From contig PBJO01000002.1 of the NCBI GenBank assembly GCA_002720745.1, forward strand, positions 67,766 to 131,765: a stretch of 64,000 nt of DNA, given 5' to 3'. The position numbers and the translations under genes were made by a program. Source of the stretch: Balneola sp. Lineage in GTDB: Bacteria > Bacteroidota > Rhodothermia > Balneolales > Balneolaceae. Shown piece by piece: positions 1,622 to 33,636 of this stretch. The number at the start of each line of letters is the position of its first letter. The first letter of the stretch is position 1. The notes under the pieces were generated by a model. It was not told where the DNA came from, ran no database searches, and saw nothing but the letters and a program-made list of their open reading frames with translations.

Positions 1622-1636
1622 AAGTATTTCTACCTT

Positions 1637-3179: not shown

Positions 3180-3197
3180 TATAATAGTTTGTACTAA

Positions 3198-4730: not shown

Positions 4731-4738
4731 TGAGTTAG

Positions 4739-7700: not shown

Positions 7701-7888
7701 AATCCAGCAAGAGCAATAGAAGCTCCCATAATGCGAAGGAATCCTTTCCTTGAAACGCCATCATTTAGTTCTGTGGCATTTTCCGGAAATTCTCGTTCAA
7801 CAAAATTTTTATACTCTTTGTTTTGAGCTAATTCATTAAGACTTTTCCAATAAGTCTTTTGTTTAACTTCTTTAGGTGATTCGCTCAT
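4739..7888 (-). CDS. actB: Alternative complex III iron-sulfur/molybdopterin-like subunit ActB
   Basis: A 1049-residue protein. The N-terminus has a twin-arginine-like SRKGFLR (residues 46-52) and then a hydrophobic stretch ending in Cys66, compatible with lipidation as reported for ActB proteins. Residues ~70-750 resemble the molybdopterin oxidoreductase fold, which is cofactor-free in ActB. From Cys804 to about residue 985 there is a ferredoxin-like domain with [35 protein letters not shown] and CQQAC, consistent with several Fe-S clusters. It links quinol oxidation to the haem subunits. It lies between actA and actC. Confidence 0.93.
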
Positions 7889-7970
7889 AACAGAAAACTA
7901 TTTATCTCTAAATTTTGATGGTTTTCTATCCAAAAATGATGATTTATACTTATTCTAAACATTTAAATTT

Positions 7971-8615
7971 TTAATAATGACAACCCTGGCAGTATTGTGG
8001 AGGACTAACATTGTTTTTCTTAACCAATTCTGCCCCTAAAAGGAGTTGATTTTCTGCTTTATAACCCATTGTGGTTACTTCTTCTATTGGGCGTAGATAC
8101 TGTTCTGGGTTTCGATGACAATCCATACACCAGCTCATACTTAATGGCTCTGCTTGGTAGACTACTTCCATCTGATCTATTCGTCCATGACAACTCTCGC
8201 AACCTACTCCAACGTTTACATGTGCTGCATGATTAAAATAGGCATAATCGGCAAGGTTGTGTACCCGTACCCATTCTACAGCTTCACCTGTCTCCCAACT
8301 TTCTCGAATGGGCGCTAATTTTTCACTATCTGTTTTGATCTGGCTATGACAATTCATACATGTTTGTGTTGGTGGCACGTTAGCCTGTTTGGAGACCCAA
8401 ACAGATGTGTGGCAGTATTGGCAGTCTAGGCCTAGTTTTTGTACATGAATTTGATGAGAGTATGGTACTGGTTGCTTAGGAGCGTATCCCACGTCTGTAA
8501 ACTCAGGAGAGAAATAGTACCAAATTCCGAAAATGATGACATTGACGGTAAGGATAAGGCCGATAAGTAATTTTCGGGGAACGTGATTTGTCCACTTTGG
8601 GAAAATCTGCGCCAT
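7971..8615 (-). CDS. actA: Alternative complex III penta-haem cytochrome c subunit ActA
   Basis: A 214-residue protein with one N-terminal transmembrane anchor (about residues 14-32) and five CxxCH haem motifs: CQYCH, CMNCH, CESCH, CMDCH and CQGCH, the last at the extreme C-terminus. Five haems match ActA of described complexes. It acts on the periplasmic side and receives electrons from the ActB iron-sulfur chain. It is the first gene of the operon; an 82-base gap separates it from actB, and a 380-base divergent region lies upstream. Confidence 0.93.
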   Translation of the reverse strand: MAQIFPKWTNHVPRKLLIGLILTVNVIIFGIWYYFSPEFTDVGYAPKQPVPYSHQIHVQKLGLDCQYCHTSVWVSKQANVPPTQTCMNCHSQIKTDSEKLAPIRESWETGEAVEWVRVHNLADYAYFNHAAHVNVGVGCESCHGRIDQMEVVYQAEPLSMSWCMDCHRNPEQYLRPIEEVTTMGYKAENQLLLGAELVKKNNVSPPQYCQGCHY

Positions 8616-13306: not shown

Positions 13307-14571
13307 GTAATTCTATCAGAAATAGAGTGCTAAATAATATATTAATAATTGGAGATAGCAAGCCTCAGAGTGATTCTGACCAGAGTTTTAATATTTTTAC
13401 TCAGTATGGATATGATTTCTGTTTTTTAAATTTAGGTAAGACATCAAGTCAACTGAAATCAAAAAGATTGAATCCATATAGGTTTATTAGGCAAATTCAG
13501 AACCTTATTATCAAAAAAAATATTACGGTTATATACCTAAGGGCAGACTGGTTCGATGCTGTTTTCCTTTACTATGCTAAAGCAATTTGTTCTTTCAATT
13601 TCGGAATCCCTCTCATAGTTGGATATCATTGTCATACGGCAAAAAAGAATAATCTTGAAAAATTCGTTCTCGAAAATGCGGATGCTCATATATTTATCAA
13701 TAATGAGTCTCAGGAATATTTTCATGATATATATGATTTGTGTCAGCCCTTTTTTATTGTTCCGAGTTTATTTCTACCAAATCTGGAATGGTATGATATC
13801 CGACTAAAGGAAAAGCTTTCAGATAAAGATGGGGAAATACATTGTGTCATTCCTACCTCTGCAATTCGTATTGCTACCCCACCAATGAAACAACATGATA
13901 AAATTCATATTGAAAACTATTTGTACGATCGCTACGATTATTATCAGATAATTAAAAAACTAATAAGGGAGAAAATCCATGTTCACATCTATGGGAATTT
14001 CAAAGCTCCTTTGAAGGGTTATTCAAAAATTACAGAAGAGATTTATAGGATTTTGAAAAATGATGAGTTTGGTGAATTTTTTCATATTGAAGGTTTTTAT
14101 AAAAAAAATGACTTCAATTCAGAACTTAGTAAATATGACTTTGCCATATTTACTGGGTTTATACCGGATCAGGAAGTGCCTCCATTTGAGCACATGAACT
14201 ATCAAGTTAGATTTAATCCTACTTTAGCGGCTGAATTACCTGTATTTATGGCGGCTAATACTGGAGGTGCTATGGAAGGAGAGCTGAATAAGCATGGTCA
14301 AGGTTATATATTTCATTCTATAACTGATATTACTAAGGTAGCTTGTGATTCTGAGAAGATGTCAGCTATGAAAATTAAATGTAAAAAAGCTCAAAAATTT
14401 CATTCCAATGACTACTGGATGCCTAAAATGCTTACTTTTTTTAAAAAAATTGCAGAAGAATATAGCTCATCAAGTGTAAATATTTACTCTGCTAAAACAT
14501 TACAAAATGAAGCATTAATCAGTTATATAAGGGGAAAAACTAAGGCTCTGATTGATCGATATTTAAAATGA
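13303..14571 (+). CDS. Putative GT-B type glycosyltransferase
   Basis: A 422-residue cytosolic-looking protein. The region NILIIGDSKP followed by LRADWFDAVF and GIPLIVGYHCHTAK resembles the N-terminal Rossmann domain of GT-B glycosyltransferases, and the C-terminal half (AAELPVFMAANTGGAME, residues ~305-325) resembles the donor site region in which position and content of a glycan chain are checked. No exact family can be named. The start overlaps the glf stop as ATGA, and the stop overlaps the flippase start the same way, so it is part of the operon. Confidence 0.6.
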   Translation: MSNSIRNRVLNNILIIGDSKPQSDSDQSFNIFTQYGYDFCFLNLGKTSSQLKSKRLNPYRFIRQIQNLIIKKNITVIYLRADWFDAVFLYYAKAICSFNFGIPLIVGYHCHTAKKNNLEKFVLENADAHIFINNESQEYFHDIYDLCQPFFIVPSLFLPNLEWYDIRLKEKLSDKDGEIHCVIPTSAIRIATPPMKQHDKIHIENYLYDRYDYYQIIKKLIREKIHVHIYGNFKAPLKGYSKITEEIYRILKNDEFGEFFHIEGFYKKNDFNSELSKYDFAIFTGFIPDQEVPPFEHMNYQVRFNPTLAAELPVFMAANTGGAMEGELNKHGQGYIFHSITDITKVACDSEKMSAMKIKCKKAQKFHSNDYWMPKMLTFFKKIAEEYSSSSVNIYSAKTLQNEALISYIRGKTKALIDRYLK

Positions 14572-16001
14572 CTACTAGACTAACTTTTAGAGATTTATGG
14601 GAATCACCAACAATCACAACATGGGTAAGTCTTGCCATTAGTAGTCTAAAAAGTCTGGTATTTTTACCATTGGTAGTTACAGTATATTCAACTGCTGAAG
14701 TTGCGACATGGTTTTTATTTCTCTCCGCTATTGCAATTTCCAACTTATTTGACCTAGGTTTTTACTCAGCCGGAAGCCGCCTTGTATCCTATATAATGGC
14801 TGGCCAAAATAGAGTAGATGGAACTTTTGAAGAGCTATATGGTACTACTGAAAAAAAAATAAACTTGATACTATATTCTAGATTATATGGAACATATGGG
14901 ATCATATTTGTTGTACTTTGTTTAGTCTTTTTTTTTGCTTTAATCACTTTAGGTACCTATACAATCAGTAATACTATTAATGAAACTCAAGACCCTTCAA
15001 TTTTATGGAACTCATGGATAGTTGTCATTATTAGTATGATTTGCAATGTTTATGGGAAAAAGTATAAAACATTTCTGCATGGAATGAATAAAATATCACT
15101 CATGAACCGATGGAATACTTTATTCGGGATATTAACATTGATCGGAGGTTTTATAGTATTGAAAATAGAGTTAAACATTTTTTGGTTTGTATTTATGACT
15201 CAAATATTTGTAATACTATCGGCTTTAAGAGATAAGTTTCTTTTGATTAATTCAATGCCTGTAAAATCTAAAATACCTAGATTTTATTGGGATAAAGAAC
15301 TTTTTATGGATGTGTGGAAACCCACCTGGCGCACAGGATTAGGAATACTTGGTTCATCTGGAATAACAGAAGCTTCTGGATTTATTTATGCTCAATATAC
15401 AAATCCTGGTCAGTTGGCAAGTTATCTATTAGCTTTAAGAATTATGAATTTTGTTTCTACAATTAGCAAGGCCCCATTTTATTCCAAACTTCCAATATAT
15501 AATAAACTCAGAGCGGAAAATAAACTTGCTGAACTTTCAGAAATTACCAAAAAAGGTATAATTTTATCACTATTAGTCTTTTCAATTACTACAAGCTTAT
15601 TAGCTATATTTACTGAAATAATATTAATTCGGATTGGTTCAAATGTAGAATTTGTATCACTAGTATTTTGGTTTGTTATGTCATTAGTCTGGTTCATTGA
15701 TAGAAACGATTCCATGCATGCTCAAATTTATAGCACCACAAATAAAATACCTTTTTATATCACTATTTCTATTACTGGCATTATTAATATTTTGTTGTTA
15801 TTTCTTTTAATCGAAGAGTATGGTATATGGTCTTTTGTTATTTCTACGGCAATAGCCAATCTTGTTATTAATAATTGGTGGAATGTGAAAATTTCACTTG
15901 AATCATTAAATCAGAATATTAGATATCTATACAAGACTTTAGTTTTACCAATTTTTTTATTTCTAATGTTATTTTCTATTGCTTTTCTTATAAAAGGATA
16001 A
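14568..16001 (+). CDS. Wzx-like polysaccharide flippase
   Basis: A 477-residue membrane protein with about 12-14 hydrophobic segments spread along the chain. Features such as NLFDLGFYSAGSRLVS near residue 60 and the two-half arrangement with a central charged loop fit the MOP superfamily (Wzx/RfbX). It would move undecaprenyl-linked repeat units across the inner membrane. The pairing with a Wzy-like polymerase immediately downstream supports this. A substrate cannot be predicted. Overlaps the preceding gene by four bases. Confidence 0.8.
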   Translation: MTTRLTFRDLWESPTITTWVSLAISSLKSLVFLPLVVTVYSTAEVATWFLFLSAIAISNLFDLGFYSAGSRLVSYIMAGQNRVDGTFEELYGTTEKKINLILYSRLYGTYGIIFVVLCLVFFFALITLGTYTISNTINETQDPSILWNSWIVVIISMICNVYGKKYKTFLHGMNKISLMNRWNTLFGILTLIGGFIVLKIELNIFWFVFMTQIFVILSALRDKFLLINSMPVKSKIPRFYWDKELFMDVWKPTWRTGLGILGSSGITEASGFIYAQYTNPGQLASYLLALRIMNFVSTISKAPFYSKLPIYNKLRAENKLAELSEITKKGIILSLLVFSITTSLLAIFTEIILIRIGSNVEFVSLVFWFVMSLVWFIDRNDSMHAQIYSTTNKIPFYITISITGIINILLLFLLIEEYGIWSFVISTAIANLVINNWWNVKISLESLNQNIRYLYKTLVLPIFLFLMLFSIAFLIKG

Positions 16002-16044: not shown

Positions 16045-17286
16045 GTGTTTCATAAAGTATTATTAACATATACAATTTTAATTTTACTTTTACATAAAGC
16101 TTTAATAGTATATAATTTTAGTTTTATAATCTTGATTGGATTATTTGGAATTATTGTATTTTCAATACTTCAAAGTACACTACAAGGAAAAAGTGTAATA
16201 TCTTATAATAAAAATGATATATACTTAGGTCTTTATCTATTGATAATATCTATTTCTCTCTTTAGATCATATATGAATGGCTTATTTGAGATATCACCTA
16301 TTTTTACAATAATGGGTGTTTATTTCATTACTTATTTTTACTTTTTATATGTTAGAACGAACAAAGAATTAAATTATAAAGAACTTATTTTTTCTGGATT
16401 AAATTTATACTTACTTATAAATTTAATTTTATACTCAATTGGTTATGAATCCCCTCACAGAATAATATTAAGTGATACTTTTGGAGAAAATGCAACTTTA
16501 AAAATCTTTGGCATATCCCATGAAAGAATCCTTTTTCCGTTAGCGCCCAATATTCAATCATATGGATTAATTTGTGGATCTCTTTTATTATATAATTTAA
16601 TTATTTATAGAAAAAATAAAAACATATACAACATATTCTTTGTGCTTATTGCTACTATCTCTTTAATATTAACAGATTCAAGAGGGCAAATATTATTTTT
16701 AATTATCATATTATTTATATATATATTTTTTAATAATTTTTTTCTAAAAAGACAGTTTTTTTTTATTATAACATATATTTTTTCAGTATTTTATATAGTA
16801 GTGATTATTTATTCAATCTACAGTTTTTTTGATATAGAGCTATTAGTTCGTGAAAATAGTGTTACTATTTTTTCTGGGCGTGAGTTAATATGGATTGAAT
16901 TTTTGACTCATTATAGGCCAACAGTGTTCGATGCGTTATTTGGATATGGAAATGATGGTCATGTCATATCTGGAATTTCTAAAAACTACTCGTATTTGTT
17001 CACGAATTGGCTTAATCCCGAATCAGCAAGCGTCCATAATAACTCATTTCAGTTGATTTTAGATATAGGCTTTATCGGATTAGGTTTATTATATTTTATT
17101 ATTTATCGAACTATACAAACTTATAGAGAGCATTATTTTTTTAATAAAAATCCCTTAAACTTGGCAGCTATATATATACTTAATTATCTTTTAATTTCTG
17201 GTACGACAGAAGGTGTATTAAATCCAGAAAATAGCTTTACGATTCTAATACTTATAATTTTAATAGTATTTACGTCATCAAAATAA
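16045..17286 (+). CDS. Wzy-like O-antigen/capsule polymerase
   Basis: A 413-residue, strongly hydrophobic and AT-rich protein with about ten transmembrane segments. The motif TDSRGQIL near residue 210 and a large periplasmic loop after it with SGRELIW and SVHNNSFQLILDIGFIGL (near residues 330-350) are typical of Wzy/WaaL-type membrane enzymes. It would polymerise repeat units at the periplasmic face. Start is GTG at 16045; an in-frame stop lies just upstream, so no longer start is possible. It sits between the flippase and the CST-I/MptE-like gene. Confidence 0.75.
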   Translation: MFHKVLLTYTILILLLHKALIVYNFSFIILIGLFGIIVFSILQSTLQGKSVISYNKNDIYLGLYLLIISISLFRSYMNGLFEISPIFTIMGVYFITYFYFLYVRTNKELNYKELIFSGLNLYLLINLILYSIGYESPHRIILSDTFGENATLKIFGISHERILFPLAPNIQSYGLICGSLLLYNLIIYRKNKNIYNIFFVLIATISLILTDSRGQILFLIIILFIYIFFNNFFLKRQFFFIITYIFSVFYIVVIIYSIYSFFDIELLVRENSVTIFSGRELIWIEFLTHYRPTVFDALFGYGNDGHVISGISKNYSYLFTNWLNPESASVHNNSFQLILDIGFIGLGLLYFIIYRTIQTYREHYFFNKNPLNLAAIYILNYLLISGTTEGVLNPENSFTILILIILIVFTSSK

Positions 17287-17290
17287 TTTT

Positions 17291-18088
17291 ATGATTAAAC
17301 GTGTATTGAAAAGTTTATTACCACTTGCTTATTTAGAAGAGCCATTTAAATATAAAATGGCAGATAAAGCTCAGATTCGTAAATACCGCAACAAATTTAA
17401 AGGAAAACGTTGTTTTGTAGTTGGTAATGGACCTTCGTTAAATAAATTGGATCTCTCTCTTTTAGAGAATGAGTACAGTTTTGGTGTAAATGGTATATTT
17501 TACAAAACTGAAGAGATGGGATACAAACCTACTTTTTATGTTGTTGAAGATATACACGTAGTTAACGATAATATTGATGCTATAAATAAGTATGAGGCCG
17601 AACATAAATTCTTTCCAAGTATCTATTGGCCAAAGATAAAAAATAATAGTAGGACCATATTTTTTAATATGAACAGAAGTTTTTATGAATCTACTAGCTC
17701 CTACTATACCATACCAAGGTTTTCGGCAGATTGTTCAGAAAGAATATATTGTGGACAATCTGTAACAATCATTAATCTTCAATTAGCCTACTATATGGGA
17801 TTTGAAGAGGTCTACCTTGTTGGAATGGATTTTTCCTATCAAATCCCGGATTCAGCAGACATCGAGGGTAATCACATTACATCTAGAGAGGATGACCTTA
17901 ATCACTTTCATCCCGATTACTTTGGGAAAGGAAAAAAGTGGCATGATCCTAAATTAGACCGTGTTCTTAAAAGCTATAAAATGGCAAAACTTATGTTTGA
18001 GCTAGATGGAAGAAAGGTTATAAATGCAACTTATGGCGGTAATTTACATATTTTTGATAGGGTGGATTTTCCTAAATTATTTCAATGA
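17291..18088 (+). CDS. CST-I (GT42)/MptE-like putative CMP-sugar transferase
   Basis: A 265-residue protein. CFVVGNGPSLNKLDL at residues 41-55 followed by NGIFYKT is the nucleotide-binding signature shared by GT42 sialyltransferases (CST-I) and DUF115/MptE-like proteins, including the Maf proteins that handle CMP-nonulosonates. A second block, VYLVGMDFSYQ (about residues 174-184), is also typical, and HFHPDYF follows. I infer that it transfers a CMP-activated acidic sugar, because a CMP-sugar synthetase-like gene lies 1.7 kb downstream. A different activity within this fold cannot be excluded. Confidence 0.65.
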   Translation: MIKRVLKSLLPLAYLEEPFKYKMADKAQIRKYRNKFKGKRCFVVGNGPSLNKLDLSLLENEYSFGVNGIFYKTEEMGYKPTFYVVEDIHVVNDNIDAINKYEAEHKFFPSIYWPKIKNNSRTIFFNMNRSFYESTSSYYTIPRFSADCSERIYCGQSVTIINLQLAYYMGFEEVYLVGMDFSYQIPDSADIEGNHITSREDDLNHFHPDYFGKGKKWHDPKLDRVLKSYKMAKLMFELDGRKVINATYGGNLHIFDRVDFPKLFQ

Positions 18089-18921
18089 AACTAAGTTTGG
18101 TTAATGCCACATATAAAAACTTTCAGTACCTACCACACTTGATTTCAAACTTAAATGAGCAAAATCTCTTAGATTTTGAATTAATAGTTTGTGATCAGAA
18201 TGAAACAAATGAATTGGAAAAAATCTTAAATTCAGTCGATGTTTCATTCGGTATACAATATAAAAAGGTAAAACAAATAGGTCTTTCTATTGCAAGGAAC
18301 ATAGGATTGGATTTAGCAATGGGAGATATTATCGGTTTTGTGGATGATGATTGTCATTATCCGAAAGATTTCACAGAAAAAATAATTGATATATTTACTC
18401 AAACTACTGAAATAGATATGATTTCAGTTTCTGTACGCGACAGAGAAACAAAGGCACTGCTTGACTTCACTCCTATGAAGAAGCAATGTAAGATTACTAA
18501 AGCAAACATATTTAAGGCTATTACTTCAGTAGGATTATTTCATAGACGTATTAAAGGCGTACGTTTTGATGAACAATTCGGTTTGGGTGCTTCTTTTGGA
18601 AGTTGCGAAGAAATGGATTATGCATATCAATTATTAGAAAAGCAATTTGATGGCTTATATCTACCTGAATTGCACGTTTTTCATCCTCCCAATGTACCAA
18701 TAGGTAATCAAAGTTTATCTAATATCCTTAGCAGGTCAAAGGGTCACGGAGCATATTTTAGGAAAAATAGAACACCATTTACATACACTGTTCAGATTCT
18801 TTTAATCCGGCCTTTAGGTGGTCTATTACTATGTCTATTAAAGCTAAAGGTAAAAGGCAGTATACGATACTTGTACATGTTAATTGGCAGAATTGCAGGA
18901 TTTATATTATATCGTGATTAA
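18085..18921 (+). CDS. Family 2 glycosyltransferase (GT-A)
   Basis: A 278-residue protein. The GT-A core begins at residue 1 (SLVNATYKNF), has GLSIARNIGLDLAMGDIIGF at about residues 72-91 and the metal-binding VDDD directly after it. A hydrophobic C-terminal patch (residues ~235-275) suggests membrane association. It would add one sugar to the lipid-linked repeat unit; donor and acceptor are unknown. The start overlaps the previous stop by four bases. Confidence 0.85.
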   Translation: MKLSLVNATYKNFQYLPHLISNLNEQNLLDFELIVCDQNETNELEKILNSVDVSFGIQYKKVKQIGLSIARNIGLDLAMGDIIGFVDDDCHYPKDFTEKIIDIFTQTTEIDMISVSVRDRETKALLDFTPMKKQCKITKANIFKAITSVGLFHRRIKGVRFDEQFGLGASFGSCEEMDYAYQLLEKQFDGLYLPELHVFHPPNVPIGNQSLSNILSRSKGHGAYFRKNRTPFTYTVQILLIRPLGGLLLCLLKLKVKGSIRYLYMLIGRIAGFILYRD

Positions 18922-18930
18922 ATTAGTAAG

Positions 18931-19758
18931 ATGAAGTTTTCAGTGTTAATTTCTGTATATAAAAATGATAATCCTGAACACTTTAAGGAAGCTGTCGAAA
19001 GTATAACTCTTTATCAGACATTAAAACCAGATCAGGTTGTAATAGTAAGAGATGGACCAGTAACAACTGAATTGGATGTTATCTTAGAACATTTTAAATC
19101 AGTACCTAATATTGATATTTTACCATTGGAGACAAATGTAGGGCTTTCAAAAGCTCTGAATTCTGGTATTGCAATATGTAAATATGATTATATTGCTAGA
19201 ATGGATAGCGATGATATTTCAGTTCCTGATCGTTTTGAAAAACAAATTGATTTCATGAATACAAATTCGGGAATTTCTATGCTGGGAGGGTGGTATGAGC
19301 AGTATGATTTCCATCTAAATTCTGTGATGAATGATAGAAGAGTTCCAGAAAATCATGAGGATATAGTTCGATTTGCACAATACAGAACACCATTTAATCA
19401 TGTGACAGCATTTTTTAATAAGCAGCATATTATGAATATTAAAGGATATCCAGAAAGTATATCTGGAAGAACTGAAGACTGGTGGTTGTCATTAAGGTTA
19501 ATTAAAGCCGGATACAAATTACACAACTTACCTGAGTATCTTGTAAAAGTTAGAGGAGGTGAAGAATTCTTAAAAAGAAGAGGTGGGTTAGAATACATAA
19601 GCTGGGAAATAAGAAATTTATATGAAATGTGGAATCAAGACCTAATTACCACAGGTAGTCTTCTCAAGAATCTTTTTATTCGTACTTTAGTGAGACTCGT
19701 TAACCCTAGGACGAGGCAATTTTTGTATATGTATATTAGAAAATTCAGAACAAATTAA
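18931..19758 (+). CDS. Family 2 glycosyltransferase (GT-A)
   Basis: A 275-residue GT2 enzyme. The N-terminus FSVLISVYKNDNPEHFKEA, the GLSKALNSGI block and the DxD-type MDSDD at about residues 91-95 are classic; the later RTEDWWLSLRL corresponds to the ED catalytic-base region. The pattern is close to amylovoran/Gal-type GT2 enzymes of exopolysaccharide loci. Nine bases separate it from the preceding gene and seven from the cytidylyltransferase that follows. Confidence 0.88.
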   Translation: MKFSVLISVYKNDNPEHFKEAVESITLYQTLKPDQVVIVRDGPVTTELDVILEHFKSVPNIDILPLETNVGLSKALNSGIAICKYDYIARMDSDDISVPDRFEKQIDFMNTNSGISMLGGWYEQYDFHLNSVMNDRRVPENHEDIVRFAQYRTPFNHVTAFFNKQHIMNIKGYPESISGRTEDWWLSLRLIKAGYKLHNLPEYLVKVRGGEEFLKRRGGLEYISWEIRNLYEMWNQDLITTGSLLKNLFIRTLVRLVNPRTRQFLYMYIRKFRTN

Positions 19759-19765
19759 TCAATAA

Positions 19766-20446
19766 ATGACATCATTTAAAGTACATGCATTATTACCAAT
19801 GAAAGGCCACTCAGAACGAGTTCCCAATAAAAATTTGAAACTTTTTAATGGCAAACCACTTTACCATCAAATTATGGAAACCCTGTTAGCTTGTGATTCC
19901 ATTGAAAATATATGGATTGATACTGACAGCGAAGAGATAAAAAAGGATGCATCGGCAAATTTTGAGAGGGTCAATATTATAGATAGACCAATAGAAATTC
20001 AGGGTGATTTTGTTTCAATGAATACTGTGATTGCATATGATTTATCTGTGATTGATGGAGAATATTTTATCCAAACTCATAGTACAAATCCTCTAATTAA
20101 ATCTTCAACTATTGAATCTGCAATACAACTCTTTCAAGAGAAGCTGCCTGAAATAGATTCCGTTTTTTCAGTCACAAAGTTATGTGCGCGGTTATATTAT
20201 CAAGATCTCAGGCCTGTAAACCATGATCCCGAAAGCCTCATCAGAACACAAGATTTACCACCGTTGTTCGAAGAGAATTCAAACTTTTATATTTTTACTA
20301 AAGAATCGTTTAATAATGCAAAGAATAAACGTATTGGTGATAAACCATCTATGTATGAAGTTGATTATTTGGAGGCGGTAGATATTGATAATCCACAAGA
20401 TTTTAAACTTGCTGAAACTTTACATCACCAATTAAATTCTATATGA
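19766..20446 (+). CDS. Acylneuraminate cytidylyltransferase family protein (CMP-sugar synthetase)
   Basis: A 226-residue nucleotidyltransferase. LLPMKGHSERVPNKNLK at residues 9-25 is the CTP-binding loop of the NeuA/KdsB family. IDTDSEE at 51-57, THSTNPL at 104-110 and VDIDNPQDF near the C-terminus (metal-binding Asp pair) also fit. It should couple CMP to a 2-keto-3-deoxy acid sugar. No NeuB, NeuC or KdsA is visible nearby; instead an HpcH/HpaI aldolase overlaps it by four bases. I infer that it activates the unusual acid made by the five following genes. The exact substrate is unknown. Confidence 0.85.
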   Translation: MTSFKVHALLPMKGHSERVPNKNLKLFNGKPLYHQIMETLLACDSIENIWIDTDSEEIKKDASANFERVNIIDRPIEIQGDFVSMNTVIAYDLSVIDGEYFIQTHSTNPLIKSSTIESAIQLFQEKLPEIDSVFSVTKLCARLYYQDLRPVNHDPESLIRTQDLPPLFEENSNFYIFTKESFNNAKNKRIGDKPSMYEVDYLEAVDIDNPQDFKLAETLHHQLNSI

Positions 20447-21213
20447 ATCAGTTAAAAAAGAAATTAAAAAACAAAGAACTTTCTATAGGAACATGGGTTA
20501 ATATTGGGCATCAATCCGTAATTGAAGTTTTAGGAATGGCCGGTTTTGATTGGGTTACCCTGGATATTGAACATAGCCCGATGAGTCTGGAGACTATTCA
20601 GAACTTGCTCGGGCATATACGAGCGACAGGGATGGAAGGCTTGGTTAGAGTTTCTAAGAATGAGGAAGTTATAATCAAACGAGTCATGGATGCCGGCGCA
20701 GATGGAATTATTGTACCCATGGTTAATAGTGAAGAAGACGCTAAAAAAGCGGTCAATTTTGTCAGGTACCCACCGCATGGAAAAAGGGGGGTTGGCCTGT
20801 CTAGGGCTCAAAAATATGGATATGGATTTTCTGAGTATAAAGAATGGACAAATAATAATTCATGCGTAATAGCACAGATTGAACATATTCAAGGTGTGAA
20901 TAACCTCGAAGCAATTCTTACTGTGAACGGAATTGATGGCATAATTATAGGACCTTATGATTTGTCAGCTTCTATGGGATACCCAGGTGAATATGAAAGA
21001 GATGAGGTAAAAGAAGCTCTTAGAAGTGTGGTGGAAATGGTCAAAAAGTCTGATAAATCTCTTGGATTTCATGTTATTGAGTCAAAGTTTTCCAAGTTGA
21101 AGGAAAAAATAGATCAAGGATATACTTTTCTTGCCTTTAGCCTTGATTTTTTCTTTCTAGGAGATCGTGCACGGGAAGAAATGGAAAAATTGAATCAAGA
21201 ATTAGAAAAATGA
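20443..21213 (+). CDS. HpcH/HpaI family pyruvate aldolase
   Basis: A 256-residue metal-dependent (class II) aldolase. The active-site pattern of HpaI is present: DIEH (His44), VRV (Arg69), DAGADG (Asp83), the metal ligands Glu147 (in QIEH) and Asp173 (in GPYDLS), and RGVGLSRAQKYG. Family members condense or cleave pyruvate and aldehydes to 4-hydroxy-2-keto acids such as 2-keto-3-deoxyglucarate. In this setting the synthetic direction, giving a ulosonic-type acid for the overlapping cytidylyltransferase, is my inference. Its start and stop overlap both neighbours by four bases, so expression is tightly coupled. Confidence 0.88.
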   Translation: MNQLKKKLKNKELSIGTWVNIGHQSVIEVLGMAGFDWVTLDIEHSPMSLETIQNLLGHIRATGMEGLVRVSKNEEVIIKRVMDAGADGIIVPMVNSEEDAKKAVNFVRYPPHGKRGVGLSRAQKYGYGFSEYKEWTNNNSCVIAQIEHIQGVNNLEAILTVNGIDGIIIGPYDLSASMGYPGEYERDEVKEALRSVVEMVKKSDKSLGFHVIESKFSKLKEKIDQGYTFLAFSLDFFFLGDRAREEMEKLNQELEK

Positions 21214-22091
21214 AAAAAGTTGTAGTATTTGGAGGGGCTGGGTTCTTAGGAAGCTACTTGGTTGAAGAACTTGCAGCTAGAGGTTATGAGACAATAGTCT
21301 GTGATATTCTGGAAGAAAATCCTTTTGAGCATGATTTGATCACCTATCAAAGATGTGATATCATGAATACAATTGAAGTGGATAGTATTATTAATGAAAA
21401 TATTGAAATAGTATATAATTTGGCTGGCTTTGCAAACTTGGAAAAAGCTATCCATAATCCATTTGAAACCATGGAACTTAATGTACTTGGTAACATTAAC
21501 ATTCTAAACGCAATTAGAAAGCAAAATGTTTCAAGATTTGTATATGCAAGCAGTGCATATGCTATGAATAAAAAAGGTTCATTTTATGGAATCAGCAAGT
21601 TAACATCAGAAAAAATGGTTGAGGAATTCAATAAGCGTTATGGATTATCTTACACTATTCTCAGATATGGATCAGTATATTCAGAGTTAGATTTCGACAA
21701 TAATTACATTTATCACCTTGTTGCCAAAGCTATTAAAACCGGAAAAATTGAACATGAAGGTGATGGAAAAGAAGTTAGAGAATATATCCATGCCCATGAT
21801 GCTGCAATTTTATCTGTAGATGTTATTCAATCTGAGTCATTTGTTAACAAACAGATCGTACTCACAGGTGCAGAAAGAATGAAAAGAATAGAACTGTTTA
21901 AAATGATAAGAGAAATATTAGGAAAGGACTTAGATATTTGTCTTAATGGAGGGGGTTATGAACACCATTACAAATATACTCCATACTCATTTGAGCCAAG
22001 TTTAAGTAAGAAGCTAATAGCAAATCCTCATATAGATATGGGGCAAGGTTTATTACGATGTATTAAAGCAGTTTATAATAATGACAAATAA
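21210..22091 (+). CDS. NAD-dependent epimerase/dehydratase (extended SDR)
   Basis: A 293-residue SDR. The NAD-binding GGAGFLG is at residues 8-14, and the catalytic YGISK gives Tyr126 and Lys130, with ASSAY just before. REYIHAHDAA near residue 190 is typical of nucleotide-sugar or sugar-phosphate epimerases. It probably oxidises or epimerises the precursor of the acid sugar in this module; the substrate cannot be read from the sequence. The stop region overlaps the next gene by 11 bases. Confidence 0.85.
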   Translation: MKKVVVFGGAGFLGSYLVEELAARGYETIVCDILEENPFEHDLITYQRCDIMNTIEVDSIINENIEIVYNLAGFANLEKAIHNPFETMELNVLGNINILNAIRKQNVSRFVYASSAYAMNKKGSFYGISKLTSEKMVEEFNKRYGLSYTILRYGSVYSELDFDNNYIYHLVAKAIKTGKIEHEGDGKEVREYIHAHDAAILSVDVIQSESFVNKQIVLTGAERMKRIELFKMIREILGKDLDICLNGGGYEHHYKYTPYSFEPSLSKKLIANPHIDMGQGLLRCIKAVYNNDK

Positions 22092-22791
22092 AAAAGTGGT
22101 ATTTATTGACTCATTTGATGAGTTTAATTTATCGGTAGCGAAAAAAATTGTTGATACGATTCAATATTCTATAGAGAAAAGAGGTAAGGCTAGTATAGCG
22201 ATATCAGGAGGTACTACACCAATTGAAATATTTAAGGTAATTAAAGAGAAGTATCTTGTGAAATTGGATACAGAGAAACTAAATATTTACTGGGTAGACG
22301 AAAGGTATGTAAGCCACAACCATCCTGATAGTAATTTTGGGATTGCAAACGACATACTTCTAAGACACATGAAAAAAGTAAAAATATTTCCAGTAGATAC
22401 AGAAATAAGTATTACGGATGCTGCTTATCAGTATGAACAATTACTCATGATGAATTTCAATTCAAAAAAAGTGGTTCCCAAATTTGACTTAGTATTTCTT
22501 GGTATGGGATCGGACGGACATACCGCCTCTCTTTTTCCTAACACTGATCAGCTATCAATTAGTGATAAGGCAGTGATAACAGTAAAATTAAAACAACTAA
22601 ATTATCATAGAATTTCTCTCACATTTCCTGTACTTAATAGCGCAAAGAACCGGATTATCGCTTTTTATGGACAGAAAAAACTAAAAATTTATTCTGAAAT
22701 CCAGCGAAATTATCACAAGAAATATCCCATACAACATTTAAATCCTTCATCTATATCTGAATCTGATTCTTGGTTTATTGGTAAGTTTTAA
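22081..22791 (+). CDS. 6-phosphogluconolactonase/glucosamine-6-phosphate isomerase family protein
   Basis: A 236-residue protein of the SugarP-isomerase-like fold. SGGTTP (42-47), WVDERYV (71-77), SNFG and GMGSDGHTASLFP (141-153) closely follow 6-phosphogluconolactonase, including the conserved Asp145 and His147. Normally it hydrolyses 6-phosphogluconolactone in the pentose phosphate pathway. No zwf or gnd is present here, and the gene is embedded in the acid-sugar module, so it may open a lactone made by the neighbouring dehydrogenase. That role is inferred. Confidence 0.82.
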   Translation: MTNKKVVFIDSFDEFNLSVAKKIVDTIQYSIEKRGKASIAISGGTTPIEIFKVIKEKYLVKLDTEKLNIYWVDERYVSHNHPDSNFGIANDILLRHMKKVKIFPVDTEISITDAAYQYEQLLMMNFNSKKVVPKFDLVFLGMGSDGHTASLFPNTDQLSISDKAVITVKLKQLNYHRISLTFPVLNSAKNRIIAFYGQKKLKIYSEIQRNYHKKYPIQHLNPSSISESDSWFIGKF

Positions 22792-22801
22792 TTTTGTGTC
22801 T

Positions 22802-23446
22802 ATGATTAAAAATATTTTCTTTGATTTTGATGGTGTAATTGCTGAGTCAGTAAGTGTCAAAACTGAGGCATTTCACAAGATGTATTTACCCTTTGGACAA
22901 GATATCGCTGATAAAGTTGTGGATCACCACCGAAATAATGGCGGGGGTTCAAGATTTGAAAAATTTAAACATTATCATAAAAAATTTCTGGGTCAACAGA
23001 TTACTGAAAATAAAGTAGAAGAGTTATCCGCTAAATTCTCAGATCTTGTAGTTGAAGGTGTGGTAAGTGCTCCTGATGTTCCAGGAAGCACTGAATTTAT
23101 CAAAAGAAATAGTTTGAATTTTAAATTTTGGATCATTACAGGCACTCCAACTAATGAGATGGTAGAAATACTTAAAAAGAGAGGGATTTTAAATTATTTT
23201 ATTGAGATATGTGGCTCACCAACAAATAAAAGCTTTTGGACGGATTATCTAATTGATAAATACCAACTGAATAGACAAGAAATAATTTTTCTAGGAGATG
23301 CCAAGTCTGATTATAATGCTGCAATGCAATCAAATATTCAGTTTGCCTTAAGAGAATATTCTCAAAATGAGTCACTTTTTAATGATTATGATGGATTGAA
23401 ATTTTCTGATTTTAACGATCTTGAAAAAAAATTAACCTATATATGA
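22802..23446 (+). CDS. HAD superfamily phosphatase
   Basis: About 214 residues from the ATG at 22802; a TTG at 22778 would overlap the previous gene and adds nothing recognisable. The nucleophile motif DFDGVIAES (Asp8, Asp10), ITGTPT (motif II) and FLGDAKSDYNAA (motif IV) are all present. The cap holds NNGGGSRFEKF, a pattern I associate with HAD enzymes of polysaccharide loci. It probably removes the phosphate from a sugar acid before CMP activation, as KdsC does in Kdo synthesis. It overlaps the following gene by four bases. Confidence 0.82.
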   Translation: MIKNIFFDFDGVIAESVSVKTEAFHKMYLPFGQDIADKVVDHHRNNGGGSRFEKFKHYHKKFLGQQITENKVEELSAKFSDLVVEGVVSAPDVPGSTEFIKRNSLNFKFWIITGTPTNEMVEILKKRGILNYFIEICGSPTNKSFWTDYLIDKYQLNRQEIIFLGDAKSDYNAAMQSNIQFALREYSQNESLFNDYDGLKFSDFNDLEKKLTYI

Positions 23447-24378
23447 GAATACTACTTACAACGACTTCATTTCAAGATACTAGAGGATCACATCATGCTT
23501 TATTGAATGAACAAGGATATGATATTGATAGGTTAAGTGGACCCGCCACTGAAGAATTGCTGTTGCCTATAATTTCAAAATATGATGCGGTTATTTGTGG
23601 AGATGATGATTACACAGAAAAAGTAATAAAAACAGGAGCTAATGGTAATCTTAAGCTAATTTCAAAATATGGGGTAGGACTAGACAGAATTGATCTGAAT
23701 GCAGCAAAAAAATATGGGGTATTTGTAACAAATTGTCCGGGGGTAAACACCCGCTCAGTTGCAGAACATGTACTGGCACTTGTATTATGTTTTTATAGAA
23801 AAATTCACTTAGAATTTAATATCACAATTTCAGGGGGGTGGGAAAGAATTACAGGTCATGAAATTTATAAAAAAACAATCGCTATTCTTGGTTTAGGCGG
23901 TGTTGGGAGAGATGTTGCTAAAATTTTCAAAGCCCTTGGATTAAATGTAAAAGTTTATGATGCGTATTTAGATGAGGATTTTGTTCTATTGAATAAACTT
24001 AAACCTTGTAGCTCAATAGAGGAACTAATTAAGGATGCTGATATTCTTACTTTGCACATACCTTTGAAAAAACAGACTGAGGGTATAATAAATATAGATC
24101 TTCTTAGAAATCAAAATGTCAAGGATTTACTCATTGTCAATACTGCTAGGGCTGGGCTGATTAAATTTGAAACAATTGAAACAGCATTGAACGAGGGAAT
24201 CATGGCTGGGTATTGTACCGATGTAATGTATGAAGAACCTATGCCACCTCAACACCCATTAAAAGATCTGCCAAATGTTTTAATTACACCTCATATTGGG
24301 TCTAGAACATTTCAAAGTGTAGAGAGGCAAGGAAAAATGGCTGTTGAAAATGTTATCAATTTCTTTAAAGCAAAATAA
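23443..24378 (+). CDS. D-isomer specific 2-hydroxyacid dehydrogenase
   Basis: A 311-residue NAD-dependent enzyme close to the catalytic core of phosphoglycerate dehydrogenase, without ACT domains. The Rossmann loop GLGGVG spans 150-155 and the catalytic Arg236 (NTARAG), Glu265 (EEP) and His284 (TPHIGS) are intact. It would interconvert a 2-hydroxy and a 2-keto acid, an activity that fits sugar-acid synthesis better than serine synthesis here. It is the last gene of the overlapping set, and a new promoter candidate follows at once. Confidence 0.85.
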   Translation: MRILLTTTSFQDTRGSHHALLNEQGYDIDRLSGPATEELLLPIISKYDAVICGDDDYTEKVIKTGANGNLKLISKYGVGLDRIDLNAAKKYGVFVTNCPGVNTRSVAEHVLALVLCFYRKIHLEFNITISGGWERITGHEIYKKTIAILGLGGVGRDVAKIFKALGLNVKVYDAYLDEDFVLLNKLKPCSSIEELIKDADILTLHIPLKKQTEGIINIDLLRNQNVKDLLIVNTARAGLIKFETIETALNEGIMAGYCTDVMYEEPMPPQHPLKDLPNVLITPHIGSRTFQSVERQGKMAVENVINFFKAK

Positions 24379-24445: not shown

Positions 24446-25138
24446 ATGATACAAGAATTAGATCATGATATAAGGATTGAGGTTGTAAAAATGCTTGAAA
24501 CCTCACATCCAAACTATAGTAAAAATCGACTTGGCAGATTCACTTCTAGATTGATTGATTTTTTTATATCTATTCTTAGCTTAATCATATTATCTCCAAT
24601 TATACTAGTAATTTCAGCATTATTGGGGAGTTTGAATGGTTTTCCAGTACTGTTTAAACAAAAACGTTTAGGAAAGAATGGTAAAATATTCACGATTCTT
24701 AAGTTTAGAACTATGCGTAAGGATGCAGAAATAATTTTGGAAGAAAATATTGAGCTGTATGACAACTATATAAAAAATGACTATAAGTTACATCCTAGTG
24801 AAGACCCAAGACTCATAAGATTTGGAGCATTATTGAGAAAAACATCTCTTGATGAATTACCTCAATTTTTTTGTGTACTTAAAGGAGACATGTCGCTTGT
24901 TGGTCCGCGCCCTATTGTTCCTCAGGAAATTGAAAGATATGAGGGGCATGAAAGAGATTTTTTATCGGTAAAACCGGGAATAACTGGGTTATGGCAGGTT
25001 TCTGGCAGGAGTGAGATAGAATACCCACAGAGAAAGTATCTTGATCTACTGTATGTTAAGAACAAATCATTATTTTTGGATTTTAAAATATTATTAAAGA
25101 CGATAGTTACAGTTGTAAGAAAGAGTGGTGCTCACTAG
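24446..25138 (+). CDS. Undecaprenyl-phosphate sugar-1-phosphate transferase (monotopic PGT)
   Basis: A 230-residue small phosphoglycosyl transferase. One membrane helix at about residues 35-55 is followed by FKQKRLGKNGKIFTILKFRTM and, after residue 130, DELPQFFCVLKGDMSLVGPRP, the core motifs of the PglC/WcaJ family, with the C-terminal GLWQVSGRS. It would start repeat-unit assembly by loading the first sugar phosphate on undecaprenyl phosphate. It has its own promoter candidate and starts 67 bases after the dehydrogenase. The sugar is not predictable from sequence. Confidence 0.92.
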   Translation: MIQELDHDIRIEVVKMLETSHPNYSKNRLGRFTSRLIDFFISILSLIILSPIILVISALLGSLNGFPVLFKQKRLGKNGKIFTILKFRTMRKDAEIILEENIELYDNYIKNDYKLHPSEDPRLIRFGALLRKTSLDELPQFFCVLKGDMSLVGPRPIVPQEIERYEGHERDFLSVKPGITGLWQVSGRSEIEYPQRKYLDLLYVKNKSLFLDFKILLKTIVTVVRKSGAH

Positions 25139-28859: not shown

Positions 28860-28953
28860 AAAAATACCAACAGAAATTTTGCATATATATTATGGTGAAT
28901 GGCTAAAATAGGCCTCTAAGTCTTTTTTGCAATCACCATGCGAGATGAGATAT

Positions 28954-29242
28954 TTAGGCTTTGGAAGCCATGCTTTCTGAGTAAATATAGCACCCTTTAG
29001 GACTATAAAAAAGTGTATGTGTAGGGCCATTGATGTAGTACCATTTTGGGAAATTAATGCTACTGATTAGGAGTTCGGTTTTGATAACCCAGAAGACCAC
29101 CTATATTGAGTAGTTGGTGGAAACGCTCGACTTCCAGTTGAGGGTTATGAAAAATTTCGGCCACTTCATAGCATACAATAAAGTTATAAGTTGTGGTAAG
29201 AGCCTCGAAATTTGGAATGTAAATGGGATCATAGGTGGTCAT
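28954..29242 (-). pseudogene. Decayed class I SAM methyltransferase
   Basis: On the minus strand, YDPIYIPNFEAL, FIVCYEVAEIFHNPQLEVERF and HQLLNIGGLLG read as the middle of a SAM-dependent methyltransferase. A one-base frameshift near 29090 moves the rest (KTELL, FPKWYYINGPTHTLFYSP) into another frame, which ends in a stop at 28954. The glycine-rich SAM-binding N-terminus is missing or unrecognisable upstream. It is not a working gene. It lies just beyond the polysaccharide locus. Confidence 0.6.
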
Positions 29243-29502
29243 GTTGATTATCGCGTTTGATGTGGGTGCGCTAAAGCTGAGTCAGGGTCGACTAAAGGGG
29301 GCAGTTCATAGGTGGAGTATAGAAAATGAGTGCAAGAATTGATAGGGATAGAGTGGGTTTTGGTTCGTTCATTACTGGCGGGTAATAATCGATATAGATT
29401 AGTTGATAAGATGGAGATATTTAGATGTAATTTGGTGAGTTTGGTTCCTGTTTGGTCGGAAATTCGTTACTTACAATTCTCTGAGATACTGTATCTTCAC
29501 TA

Positions 29503-30815
29503 ATGTCAAATGAACTAACCCTTCGGGCTACTCCTGAAATTGCCGCTACATCCAAACTTTTGCGTAAAGAGGTGAAAAAGGTGTTGAGGGTGCAGGATTT
29601 GTTTCTACCAGAGGAAATAATAGGTATTCATGTGCGCAAGTAATCTATTGATGCTAGAGGCAGGGAGCCTGTGATGCAGTTGCAAGTGCAGGTGTTTAGT
29701 GTGGGTGAGGAGACTGATTGGAATGTGGTGCGGCGGAGCTTGACCAAGCCTGGGGCAGTGTATTTGCCTAAGTATCTGGATGTGCGAGAGGCGGAAGAGG
29801 TGCACATTGTGGGAGCTGGACCGGCAGGGTTGTTTGCGGCACAGCGGCTCTTGGAGCGGGTTTAAAGCCGGTAGTTTGGGAACGCGGGAAAGATATGCGT
29901 CAGATTTTCGAGGTTTTTGGGGCGGTGCCGGAGATTTTAGTGGAGGCGCATCCGCATATTGGTAATGCTGCAATTTGCGATGTACGCAAAATCCCTGCTA
30001 AATATGTGATTTTGGCTACTGGACATTCGGCTCGCGATATTTTTAAGCTATTAGTTCGGCGAGAAATTGCAGTGGAGACCAAACCGCTGGCTATATGGGT
30101 GTGGATAGAGCATCCACAAGCTGTCATCGATTTCATCCAATTTTCGTGTGGGTCGCGTGGAAAGTATTTGCCGGAGGCATCCTATTCGGTTGTGCATCAG
30201 GTCGAGGGGTCTATTCTTTTTGCATGTGACAGGGAGGGGTGGTAGCCCCTTGTGCGACTAAGCCAGGACAATGGATAGTCTTCACCTAGGCGGGCTCGAT
30301 CTACAGCAAATTCAGGCATCGTAGTGGAATAAAATTAACCGTTTACATGGCCTATGAGGTAGAGTATGGACCACTGGCAGCGATGGCGTTTCAGGCCGAT
30401 ATTGAGCGGAAGGCGTGGGAAGCGGGTGGGCGGATGCAAACTGCTCCGGCGCAACGATTGGTTGATTTTATGGATGGGGGTGTATCCAAAGACTTCCTAT
30501 GCACCAGGACTTCGATCAGTGAATTTATCAGAGGTAATTCCGGATTTCATTATGAAGCGTCTGCGTGAGGGTTTTGTGGCTTTTAACCGTAAAATGAAGG
30601 GTTACTTGACCAATGAGGTGGTTGTAAATGCCTCAGAAACATAAACCTCTTCTCCTGTAAGGATTCAGCGGGAGCCGGTACACTTAGTTCATCCCAAAGT
30701 TGAAGGATTGTATCCCTATGGCGAGGGTGCAGATTATGCTGGTGGGATTATATCCGCAGCTATGGATGGCGAACGCGTTGCAGAAGCAGTGGTGCGGTCG
30801 GTGCGAGTGGAGTAG
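29503..30815 (+). pseudogene. Decayed FAD-dependent dehydrogenase (COG2509-like)
   Basis: Fragments in several frames spell out one flavoprotein in order: a start at 29503 and LRKEVKKVLRVQDLFLPEE, a stop at 29641, the FAD motif VHIVGAGPAGLFAAQRLLER, a frameshift near 29860, KPVVWERGKDMR, EILVEAHPHIG, YVILATGHSARDIF, HPQAVIDFIQF, KYLPEASYSVVHQV, YGPLAAMAFQADIE, TAPAQRLVDFMDGG, APGLRSVNLSEVIPDFI, and GLYPYGEGADYAGGIISAAM with a final stop at 30815. There are at least three frame changes, and I infer two internal deletions. It is more GC-rich than the polysaccharide genes before it, so it is probably ancestral chromosome. Confidence 0.85.
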
Positions 30816-30829
30816 TGTGACCGAAAGGT

Positions 30830-31291
30830 TTAAGCTTTCGATTTGATGTTCAGGTTGGAGGCGTGTTCAATGAGCTTTGGCAGATACTTCTTCCAGCTTT
30901 TTTGGGCGGCGATGTAGCGATCCAAGCCCCCTTCCACATAGTTATAGCCCTTCTGGGTGATGCTCAGGTGGGTGGTACCGTCATAATTATCAAGCAGTAT
31001 ATAACAGACCACGATATAGTTTTCAAGGTCATCCTCTATTCCCATTTGTGTAGGAAAGGAAGTGTATTCGAGAAGATTTTGTGCTGAAACGCGGATCACT
31101 TCACCTTTTTCAACCACTAGATCGTGTTCGTCTTGCTGCCTCGTAAATTGTATTTTGGTACCTACGGTCCATTCACAATGGCACTGTAATTCTTCAAAAA
31201 TCTGATTGAGATGCTCGGGGTTGGTGATAGCTTGCCAAACCGACTCAGGTTCTGCTGGGATATTCGTGTTAATATGTATACTATTTTCCAT
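30830..31291 (-). CDS. SRPBCC (START/AHSA1-like) domain protein
   Basis: About 153 residues from the ATG at 31291; the frame is open further upstream but those residues look non-coding. The opening SIHINTNIPAEPESVWQAIT, followed by W/T/G-rich strands and a long C-terminal helix ending KSWKKYLPKLIEHASNL, fits the SRPBCC helix-grip fold, which binds hydrophobic ligands or acts as a co-chaperone. The specific role is unknown. It is divergent from the Nramp-like gene. Confidence 0.7.
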   Translation of the reverse strand: MENSIHINTNIPAEPESVWQAITNPEHLNQIFEELQCHCEWTVGTKIQFTRQQDEHDLVVEKGEVIRVSAQNLLEYTSFPTQMGIEDDLENYIVVCYILLDNYDGTTHLSITQKGYNYVEGGLDRYIAAQKSWKKYLPKLIEHASNLNIKSKA

Positions 31292-32750: not shown

Positions 32751-33599
32751 ATGAATCAGTCAAGCTCTTTACGTATCGATTTGAATTGTGATTTAGGAGA
32801 ATGGGATGCTGAAAACCAGAATCCGGATCAACAGTTGCGTGATCGCTCAATTATGCCTTTGGTTTCTTCAGTGAATATAGCTTGTGGTGGGCATCGGGGT
32901 GATGCCGATTCGCTTCGATTTACCATGGAACAGGCGGCTATTTTAGGCGTAGCTATTGGGCTACATCCTTCCTTTCCTGATCGAGATGGCTTTGGCCGTG
33001 TTGAGTATCCTTGGTCAGAAGATTTGGTGGATGAATTGCGGCGTCAACTCGATTTGGGCCGGCAAGTAGCCCAGGAGTTGGGGTTAACTATACATCATAT
33101 CAAACCGCATGGGGCCTTGTATAATATGGCTGCCCGGGATCTAGAGTGGGCCGAGCGTTTGTGGGTACTTTGGCACAGTTGGGACAACCAAGTTTTAGTG
33201 TATGGGTTGTCGGGTTCGGAAGTTTCTAAGGGTTTAGGAATAGATTTGAGGTATGTTCATCGAGGTGATGGTTCTTTAGAATTTGGTGGTAGTGTAGATT
33301 TTCGGTTCAATATGAGGCCTAGTTATCGCGCTGAAGCATTTGCCGATCGGACCTATGAACCAGATCTTAGTTTATGTTCGCGAAGTTTGGATGGAGCGGT
33401 AATTTCGGATATGGATGCCCTTCAGGCTCAAGTCAAGGATCTAGTTCTAAATAGAAAGGTTTTGTGCACCGATGGGGTGTATAGGGAATTAGATGTGGAT
33501 ACTATTTGCTTGCATTCCGATACACCAGATTCAGTGAAATTGGCTCACCTGATGGCGGCAAAGCTGTATGAATGGGATGTGGAGGTGTGTCCTTGTTGA
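32751..33599 (+). CDS. pxpA: 5-oxoprolinase subunit A (LamB/YcsF family)
   Basis: A 282-residue protein. IDLNCDLGEWD at residues 9-19, VNIACGGHRGDA, GLHPSFPDRDGFGR and HIKPHGALYNMA are diagnostic of PxpA. With PxpB and PxpC it forms the ATP-dependent 5-oxoprolinase that opens pyroglutamate to glutamate. GAAGGAAA lies just before the ATG. It is longer than the usual ~250 residues, with extra sequence in the C-terminal third. It is followed after 37 bases by the fused partner gene. Confidence 0.93.
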   Translation: MNQSSSLRIDLNCDLGEWDAENQNPDQQLRDRSIMPLVSSVNIACGGHRGDADSLRFTMEQAAILGVAIGLHPSFPDRDGFGRVEYPWSEDLVDELRRQLDLGRQVAQELGLTIHHIKPHGALYNMAARDLEWAERLWVLWHSWDNQVLVYGLSGSEVSKGLGIDLRYVHRGDGSLEFGGSVDFRFNMRPSYRAEAFADRTYEPDLSLCSRSLDGAVISDMDALQAQVKDLVLNRKVLCTDGVYRELDVDTICLHSDTPDSVKLAHLMAAKLYEWDVEVCPC

Positions 33600-33636
33600 T
33601 GGTTGAAGCGTCGGTTTGTGCGTCGGGAGGTTCTCT

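Follow-up and report, generated by a model that had tools for sequence, protein, structure and literature searches.

The sequence analysed here, referred to as the window, is the full 64,000-nt stretch of Balneola sp. contig PBJO01000002.1 at forward-strand positions 67,766–131,765. The subject of this study is a run of six consecutive genes on its plus strand, at 19766–24378 of the window, which may form a route to a cytidine monophosphate (CMP)-activated 2-ulosonic acid. The genes encode a NeuA/PseF-type CMP-sugar synthetase (19766–20446, CTP_transf_3), an HpcH/HpaI class II pyruvate aldolase (20443–21213, HpcH_HpaI), an extended short-chain dehydrogenase/reductase (SDR) of the NAD-dependent epimerase/dehydratase family (21210–22091, Pfam Epimerase), a 6-phosphogluconolactonase family hydrolase (22081–22791, Glucosamine_iso/6PGL), a HAD phosphatase (22802–23446, HAD_2) and a phosphoglycerate-dehydrogenase-like D-2-hydroxyacid dehydrogenase (23443–24378, 2-Hacid_dh). 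Checking of the open reading frames (ORFs) of the window found all six intact, in the place, order and spacing reported in the initial annotation. Four junctions overlap by 4, 4, 11 and 4 bases, and a 10-base gap precedes the HAD start codon, ATG 22802; if TTG 22778 is the start, that junction is a 14-base overlap instead. Pfam scores of all six proteins were far above cut-off. In NCBIfam, they matched relatives below cut-off only, except that the pgl model and a generic HAD-IA subfamily model were passed. The catalytic residues are kept in relatives, and the enzyme activities named here are predicted from the sequences.

The aldolase was used as a query in one scan of GTDB genome contigs, and neighbouring genes were scored against the window genes plus the families found around them. 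Of the 49 loci found, 48 show 53–68% identity. A CMP-sugar synthetase gene adjoins the aldolase gene in 46 of these 48, and the two exceptions (L033 and L036) break off at or close to a contig edge. The hosts of the 48 loci belong to Bacteroidota, Campylobacterota, Deferribacterota, Desulfobacteraceae, Planctomycetota, Ignavibacteriota and Gammaproteobacteria. The gene order of the window recurs in Bacteroidota, and a shuffled order (synthetase, aldolase, dehydrogenase, SDR, cyclase, HAD) was found in Campylobacterota, Desulfobacteraceae and Deferribacterota. A locus from the window's family (L063 in genome G054) has the identical six-gene order. Another from the window's genus (L102 in G434) has all six families and a YhcH gene, with the lactonase gene moved outside. 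Co-occurrence of the six families in other genomes had been set beforehand as a check and was found across phyla. Because the whole set recurs in other genomes, the six-gene order is far beyond chance. The window and its relatives have the aldolase gene next to a CMP-sugar synthetase gene together with a 2-hydroxyacid dehydrogenase gene, the combination by which we define the module. The initial annotation treated the six genes as the module; the set does recur, but it is larger, since an anomerase-family gene of the relatives and a Maf/sialyltransferase-like glycosyltransferase gene of the window also belong to it.

When 394 genomes from the phylum were surveyed without regard to gene context (aldolase E ≤ 1e-50), 12 aldolase matches were found, 10 of which lie in polysaccharide loci with the module. 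The aldolases of L072 and L073 (38–39% identity) stand alone and fall in the outgroup of the tree, which makes them a natural negative control. No relative was found on viral contigs, and plasmids carry mostly catabolic aldolases at 37–40% identity. Two plasmid loci were recorded separately. An alphaproteobacterial Acuticoccus plasmid (L078, NZ_CP094833.1, 40686–45138) has genes for an aldolase, a synthetase, a phosphoglycerate-dehydrogenase-like protein, a HAD protein and an oxidoreductase in a row, with generic annotations only. On plasmid p5 of Gemmobacter fulvus (L079), a synthetase relative is flanked by MptE-like/glycosyltransferase genes on one side and a gene for an NAD(P)-dependent oxidoreductase on the other, with no annotated aldolase nearby.

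The synthetase matches PF02348 (CTP_transf_3) with 94 bits. Its nucleotide loop KG.S.R...KN (K13, G14, S16, R18, K22 and N23) and the DxD metal pair D206 and D208 are conserved in 31 of 31 relatives. It failed the PseF equivalog model (82 of 206 bits) and scored below 37 bits with the KdsB models of NCBIfam. By its family, it would form a CMP-ulosonate from cytidine triphosphate (CTP). The window genome (2.17 Mb, 98.6% complete) contains this single CTP_transf_3 gene. It has no match to NeuB (PF03102), for which the control was positive in 9 of 14 genomes, and none to KdsA/DAHP_synth_1 (PF00793), KdtA/WaaA (PF04413) or LpxC. A NeuB, a KdsA or a second CMP-sugar synthetase hidden elsewhere in the genome was considered, and none was found. 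The absence of KdsA, NeuB and NeuC from the locus, as first annotated, holds; for NeuB and KdsA it extends to the whole genome, while NeuC was not searched genome-wide. By its gene content, the genome seems to be without standard lipopolysaccharide containing 3-deoxy-D-manno-oct-2-ulosonic acid (Kdo) and without a type I 3-deoxy-D-arabino-heptulosonate 7-phosphate (DAHP) synthase. Because both NeuB and a KdsA-family enzyme are missing, there is no known ulosonate synthase to feed the synthetase. The annotation had named a synthetase accepting only Kdo or a known nonulosonate made elsewhere as a case that would refute the proposal, and the genome has no phosphoenolpyruvate (PEP)-dependent ulosonate synthase to make one.

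What usually stands beside such synthetases was surveyed in 77 genomes of the window's family (CTP_transf_3 at 58 bits or more, neighbours within 12 kb). Among 47 synthetase genes, 34 were accompanied by NeuB, 2 by KdsA and 8 by an HpaI-type aldolase, one of the last being a broken second copy in G416; 3 were unassigned, two of them on contigs of 3–5 kb. G434 has two synthetases, one paired with NeuB and one with the aldolase. As the neighbours of the synthetase are NeuB, KdsA or an HpaI-type aldolase, the aldolase takes the position otherwise held by a PEP-dependent ulosonate synthase. The pairing also outlasts changes in the synthetase. Module aldolases group together in the tree while the synthetase type, NeuA-like or KdsB-like, is swapped: the NeuA label needs 6 changes on the aldolase tree, at least 4 of them forced by well-supported branches, compared with a mean of 21 after shuffling. 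Since the synthetase type was swapped several times and the aldolases stay one group, the constant of the module is the aldolase plus CMP activation. Where a host has KdsB, the synthetase of the module comes in addition to it. These data bear on the possibility that the six genes do two separate jobs, in which an ordinary ulosonate supplied from elsewhere (Kdo or a nonulosonate) is the substrate of the synthetase, and the aldolase and the other enzymes provide the same polysaccharide with a further residue or substituent. As this would predict, nothing sets the synthetase apart from other CTP_transf_3 members, and some of its relatives have no adjacent aldolase. However, the lack of NeuB, KdsA-family enzyme and second synthetase in the genome, the survival of the pairing when the synthetase type is exchanged, and the additional synthetase that the module brings into hosts with KdsB make it very unlikely.

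The aldolase belongs to HpcH/HpaI class II (PF03328, 147 bits against a cut-off of 25). The initial annotation credited it with all catalytic residues; H44, R69 and the metal-binding E147 and D173 are indeed present, and they are conserved in relatives. Its scores lie below the NCBIfam equivalog cut-offs for HpaI (209 of 369 bits), GarL (198 of 407) and RhmA (163 of 441), and these curated cut-offs together with its separate tree clade rule out an annotation as any of the three. Two residues mark the module clade. All 58 module aldolases have His at position 210, which aligns with Leu212 of Escherichia coli HpaI (PDB alignment) and Leu216 of RhmA/YfaU. Position 172 is Tyr in all 58, and Ala or Ser in RhmA and GarL. 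Leu216 of a related enzyme is named among the hydrophobic residues lining the aldehyde, and the aldehyde site of HpaI has been described as hydrophobic (PMC8560999). Because His210 and Tyr172 replace the Leu and the Ala or Ser of the compared enzymes, the pocket predicts a different, more polar acceptor. Aldolases without the His210 type occur in G416 (L093), G077 (L094) and a second locus of G054 (L098), each adjoining a CMP-sugar synthetase gene. As these fall outside the His210 type, HpaI-type aldolases may have been recruited repeatedly beside CMP-sugar synthetases.

The same enzyme might instead work in the cleavage direction, to salvage or degrade an acidic sugar or to shorten the chain of an intermediate, within a mixed catabolic and anabolic cluster. 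GarL, RhmA and HpaI are catabolic, and the combination of an SDR, a lactonase and an HpaI-type aldolase resembles non-phosphorylating catabolism of rhamnose and uronates. Against this, none of the dehydratases, transporters or regulators of such pathways is present in the loci, which always lie inside glycosyltransferase/flippase clusters, and the pocket residues His210 and Tyr172 are unlike those of the catabolic enzymes compared. We regard cleavage as highly improbable. In vitro, HpcH/HpaI enzymes have been reported to couple either pyruvate or hydroxypyruvate to glycolaldehyde, glyceraldehyde, lactaldehyde and erythrose (PMC7610986); the synthetic direction with small hydroxyaldehydes is documented for the family (PMC7610986, PMC8560999).

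The initial annotation assigned the preparation of a sugar acid to a dehydrogenase, a lactonase and the 2-hydroxyacid dehydrogenase. The lactonase part of this is strengthened. The protein passes the pgl equivalog-domain model (172.8 bits, cut-off 124.45), and no glucose-6-phosphate dehydrogenase (G6PDH) match was found in the window genome, so the lactonase is without its classical partner and a housekeeping role in the pentose phosphate pathway is ruled out. One further Glucosamine_iso gene of the genome lies in a 645-residue frame. Across loci, the lactonase slot is filled either by a 6-phosphogluconolactonase or, in many relatives, by an unrelated cyclase-family hydrolase (PF04199). Two unrelated hydrolase families in one slot favour ring-opening hydrolysis. 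For the SDR, formation of the lactone is one option only. It has the Y126xxxK130 motif, and the best structural matches of its model, an NDP-sugar-epimerase-like fold, are nucleoside diphosphate (NDP)-sugar 4-epimerases. The enzyme might thus have a nucleotide sugar as its substrate and not be the one that forms the lactone. An attempt to read the acceptor from its sequence and fold failed, as 4-epimerase matches do not fix the substrate.

The HAD protein has the D16xD18 motif, and its closest NCBIfam models are phosphoglycolate phosphatases. The 2-hydroxyacid dehydrogenase has the catalytic set R236/E265/H284 and is closest to phosphoglycerate dehydrogenases. Such a dehydrogenase is present in nearly all module loci with enough sequence; four loci of Campylobacterota (L015, L027, L031 and L032) have the aldolase and a KdsB-like synthetase and no dehydrogenase in the stretch examined. 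In L065, a weak CTP_transf_3 domain and a 2-hydroxyacid dehydrogenase are fused in one 590-residue protein (6184–7953, minus strand), whose gene adjoins a KdsB-like gene and an HpaI-type aldolase gene. These enzymes suggest another donor for the aldolase: the dehydrogenase and the HAD enzyme could make hydroxypyruvate from 3-phosphoglycerate, which would then be the nucleophile of the aldolase, and the product would be a 2-ulosonic acid that carries a hydroxyl at C3 instead of being 3-deoxy. The nearest relatives of both proteins, the presence of the dehydrogenase in nearly all loci and the synthetase-like fusion are consistent with this, and hydroxypyruvate is accepted by 19 HpcH/HpaI enzymes (PMC7610986). 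But variants of the module described below keep the dehydrogenase and show no HAD of that type, the SDR and the lactonase would be left to the acceptor side only, and the close relatives of the aldolase with solved structures are pyruvate enzymes. We therefore think hydroxypyruvate an unlikely donor.

In many Bacteroidota loci, YhcH-family genes lie between the synthetase and aldolase genes. YhcH is an N-acetylneuraminate anomerase serving sialate aldolase (PMC8141875). YhcH is missing from the window's own module. A second form of the module (route B) was seen in L011, L040, L047, L005, L034, L064, L066, L069 and L094. It keeps the aldolase, the synthetase and the 2-hydroxyacid dehydrogenase; where the SDR/HAD part would be, it has genes for a SIS isomerase, a Gfo/Idh dehydrogenase, a short SDR and an AroB-like cyclase (TIGR04425). 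Route B may make a different acceptor. One protein family of these loci (family 30) was first taken for a GHMP kinase; its sequence is that of a Gfo/Idh/MocA dehydrogenase, and the idea of a heptose kinase was dropped.

Our preferred reading, to which we give a probability of about 0.65, is that the six genes form a dedicated route to a CMP-activated 2-ulosonic acid whose skeleton is closed by an HpaI-type aldolase and not by NeuB or KdsA. In such a route, the SDR, the lactonase, the HAD phosphatase and the 2-hydroxyacid dehydrogenase would convert a sugar phosphate into a small polyhydroxy acceptor. By the chemistry of its family, the aldolase would add pyruvate to give a 3-deoxy-2-ulosonic acid. 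In many relatives, the YhcH-family anomerase could balance open and ring forms, the synthetase would then yield the CMP-sugar, and a Maf/sialyltransferase-like enzyme, probably the product of 17291–18088, would transfer the sugar into a Wzx/Wzy-type surface polysaccharide. The part of the initial proposal in which an HpaI-type aldolase supplies the 2-keto acid for CMP activation gains support from the co-occurrence across phyla and from the lack of a PEP-dependent synthase in the genome. Several points weigh against this route. We know of no HpcH/HpaI enzyme with an established physiological role that is not catabolic, and condensation with PEP is more favourable than aldol condensation with pyruvate. 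Relatives of the synthetase occur without a nearby aldolase on Gemmobacter and Pararhizobium plasmids, the SDR resembles an NDP-sugar epimerase, and a simple scheme of aldehyde plus pyruvate leaves the 2-hydroxyacid dehydrogenase without an obvious task.

The module is embedded in a polysaccharide cluster, which also contains UDP-galactopyranose mutase and several glycosyltransferase genes, with all the following genes on the plus strand. A flippase-like membrane protein (14568–16001) has no Pfam match and clusters with proteins recurring beside the module in 8 other loci. It is followed by a Wzy_C polymerase/ligase-like membrane protein (16045–17286), the MptE-like/GT42-like protein of 17291–18088, a GT2 glycosyltransferase of the same operon (18085–18921, Pfam) and another GT2 glycosyltransferase (18931–19758), whose gene ends 7 bases upstream of the synthetase gene. 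Downstream of the module lies a bacterial sugar transferase, a putative initiating phosphoglycosyltransferase (24446–25138; Pfam, NCBIfam). The protein of 17291–18088 matches PF01973 with 82 bits, and its AlphaFold model has a mean pLDDT (AlphaFold's per-residue confidence score) of 85. The top Foldseek matches in the PDB were Maf (5mu5, E 1e-5), archaeal HPPK and ST6GALNAC2-CMP (E 7e-4), with TM-scores of only 0.4–0.5. It thus combines an MptE-like domain with a Maf/sialyltransferase fold at modest TM-scores, and its relatives lie near the module in about ten loci. This fits, and does not prove, a role of the modelled protein as the transferase for the CMP-activated ulosonic acid. Elsewhere in the window, the stretch of roughly 2 kb (28860–30830) that separates the polysaccharide cluster from the next long gene holds no convincing ORF. 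Translations read by eye suggest a LamB/YcsF-like protein followed by a fused protein like the 5-oxoprolinase subunits PxpB/PxpC at 32751–35442, and alternative complex III-like genes, for a quinol oxidoreductase with cytochrome c subunits, at 425–8615 on the minus strand. The genes for membrane bioenergetics would fit a lineage like Bacteroidota.

The module resembles several known systems. It shares with the NeuB-based pathways to nonulosonic acids (sialic, legionaminic and pseudaminic acid) a small operon in a surface-polysaccharide cluster, a NeuA/PseF-type synthetase and a Maf/sialyltransferase-like transferase. Unlike them, it has no NeuB in the locus or genome, a C–C bond proposed to be formed by an HpaI-type enzyme and no amino-sugar-forming genes among the six. 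The Kdo pathway (KdsD/KdsA/KdsC/KdsB) likewise has a 2-keto acid, a phosphatase and CMP activation, and some relatives have a KdsB-like synthetase beside the aldolase. However, the window genome lacks a KdsA-family synthase, KdtA and LpxC, and in KdsB hosts the module synthetase is an extra. As the defining synthases are absent, the module would work like the nonulosonate and Kdo pathways yet be a member of neither. The catabolic enzymes HpaI, GarL and RhmA have the same fold and catalytic residues (about 200–209 bits to the HpaI and GarL models), whereas the module aldolase forms a separate clade, has His210/Tyr172 and lies in a biosynthetic context. In YhcH–NanA sialic acid catabolism, the gene of a pyruvate aldolase with an ulosonic acid as substrate likewise has an anomerase-family gene as its neighbour (PMC8141875); here, there is a CMP-sugar synthetase, the aldolase is of class II and the window module is without YhcH.

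The gene content of the module, its conservation, the pairing of aldolase and synthetase and the lack of NeuB and KdsA-family enzymes in the genome are direct results of our computation. A search of open-access literature found no paper describing the module; subscription journals lay outside this search, so it is no proof of novelty. The module is real, conserved and apparently undescribed, pointing to an undescribed route, and the sugar made by it is probably undescribed as well. With somewhat better than even confidence, we propose a third, PEP-independent route to CMP-ulosonates, in which HpaI-type aldolases serve surface-glycan biosynthesis, make an ulosonic acid not yet described and draw on two acceptor branches (SDR/lactonase/HAD, or SIS isomerase/Gfo-Idh/SDR/AroB-like cyclase). 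To our knowledge, all well-studied bacterial CMP-activated ulosonic acids (Kdo, sialic, legionaminic and pseudaminic acid) are built by the PEP-dependent enzymes KdsA or NeuB, and genome surveys predict such sugars by searching for KdsA and NeuB genes. If our reading is true, these surveys would overlook one class of acidic sugars on cell surfaces, also in bacteria that have neither Kdo nor NeuB. The compact module makes the route tractable with six purified proteins. On the same reading, an aldolase family employed by chemists in synthesis, and known in nature from catabolism, would gain a physiological role in biosynthesis.

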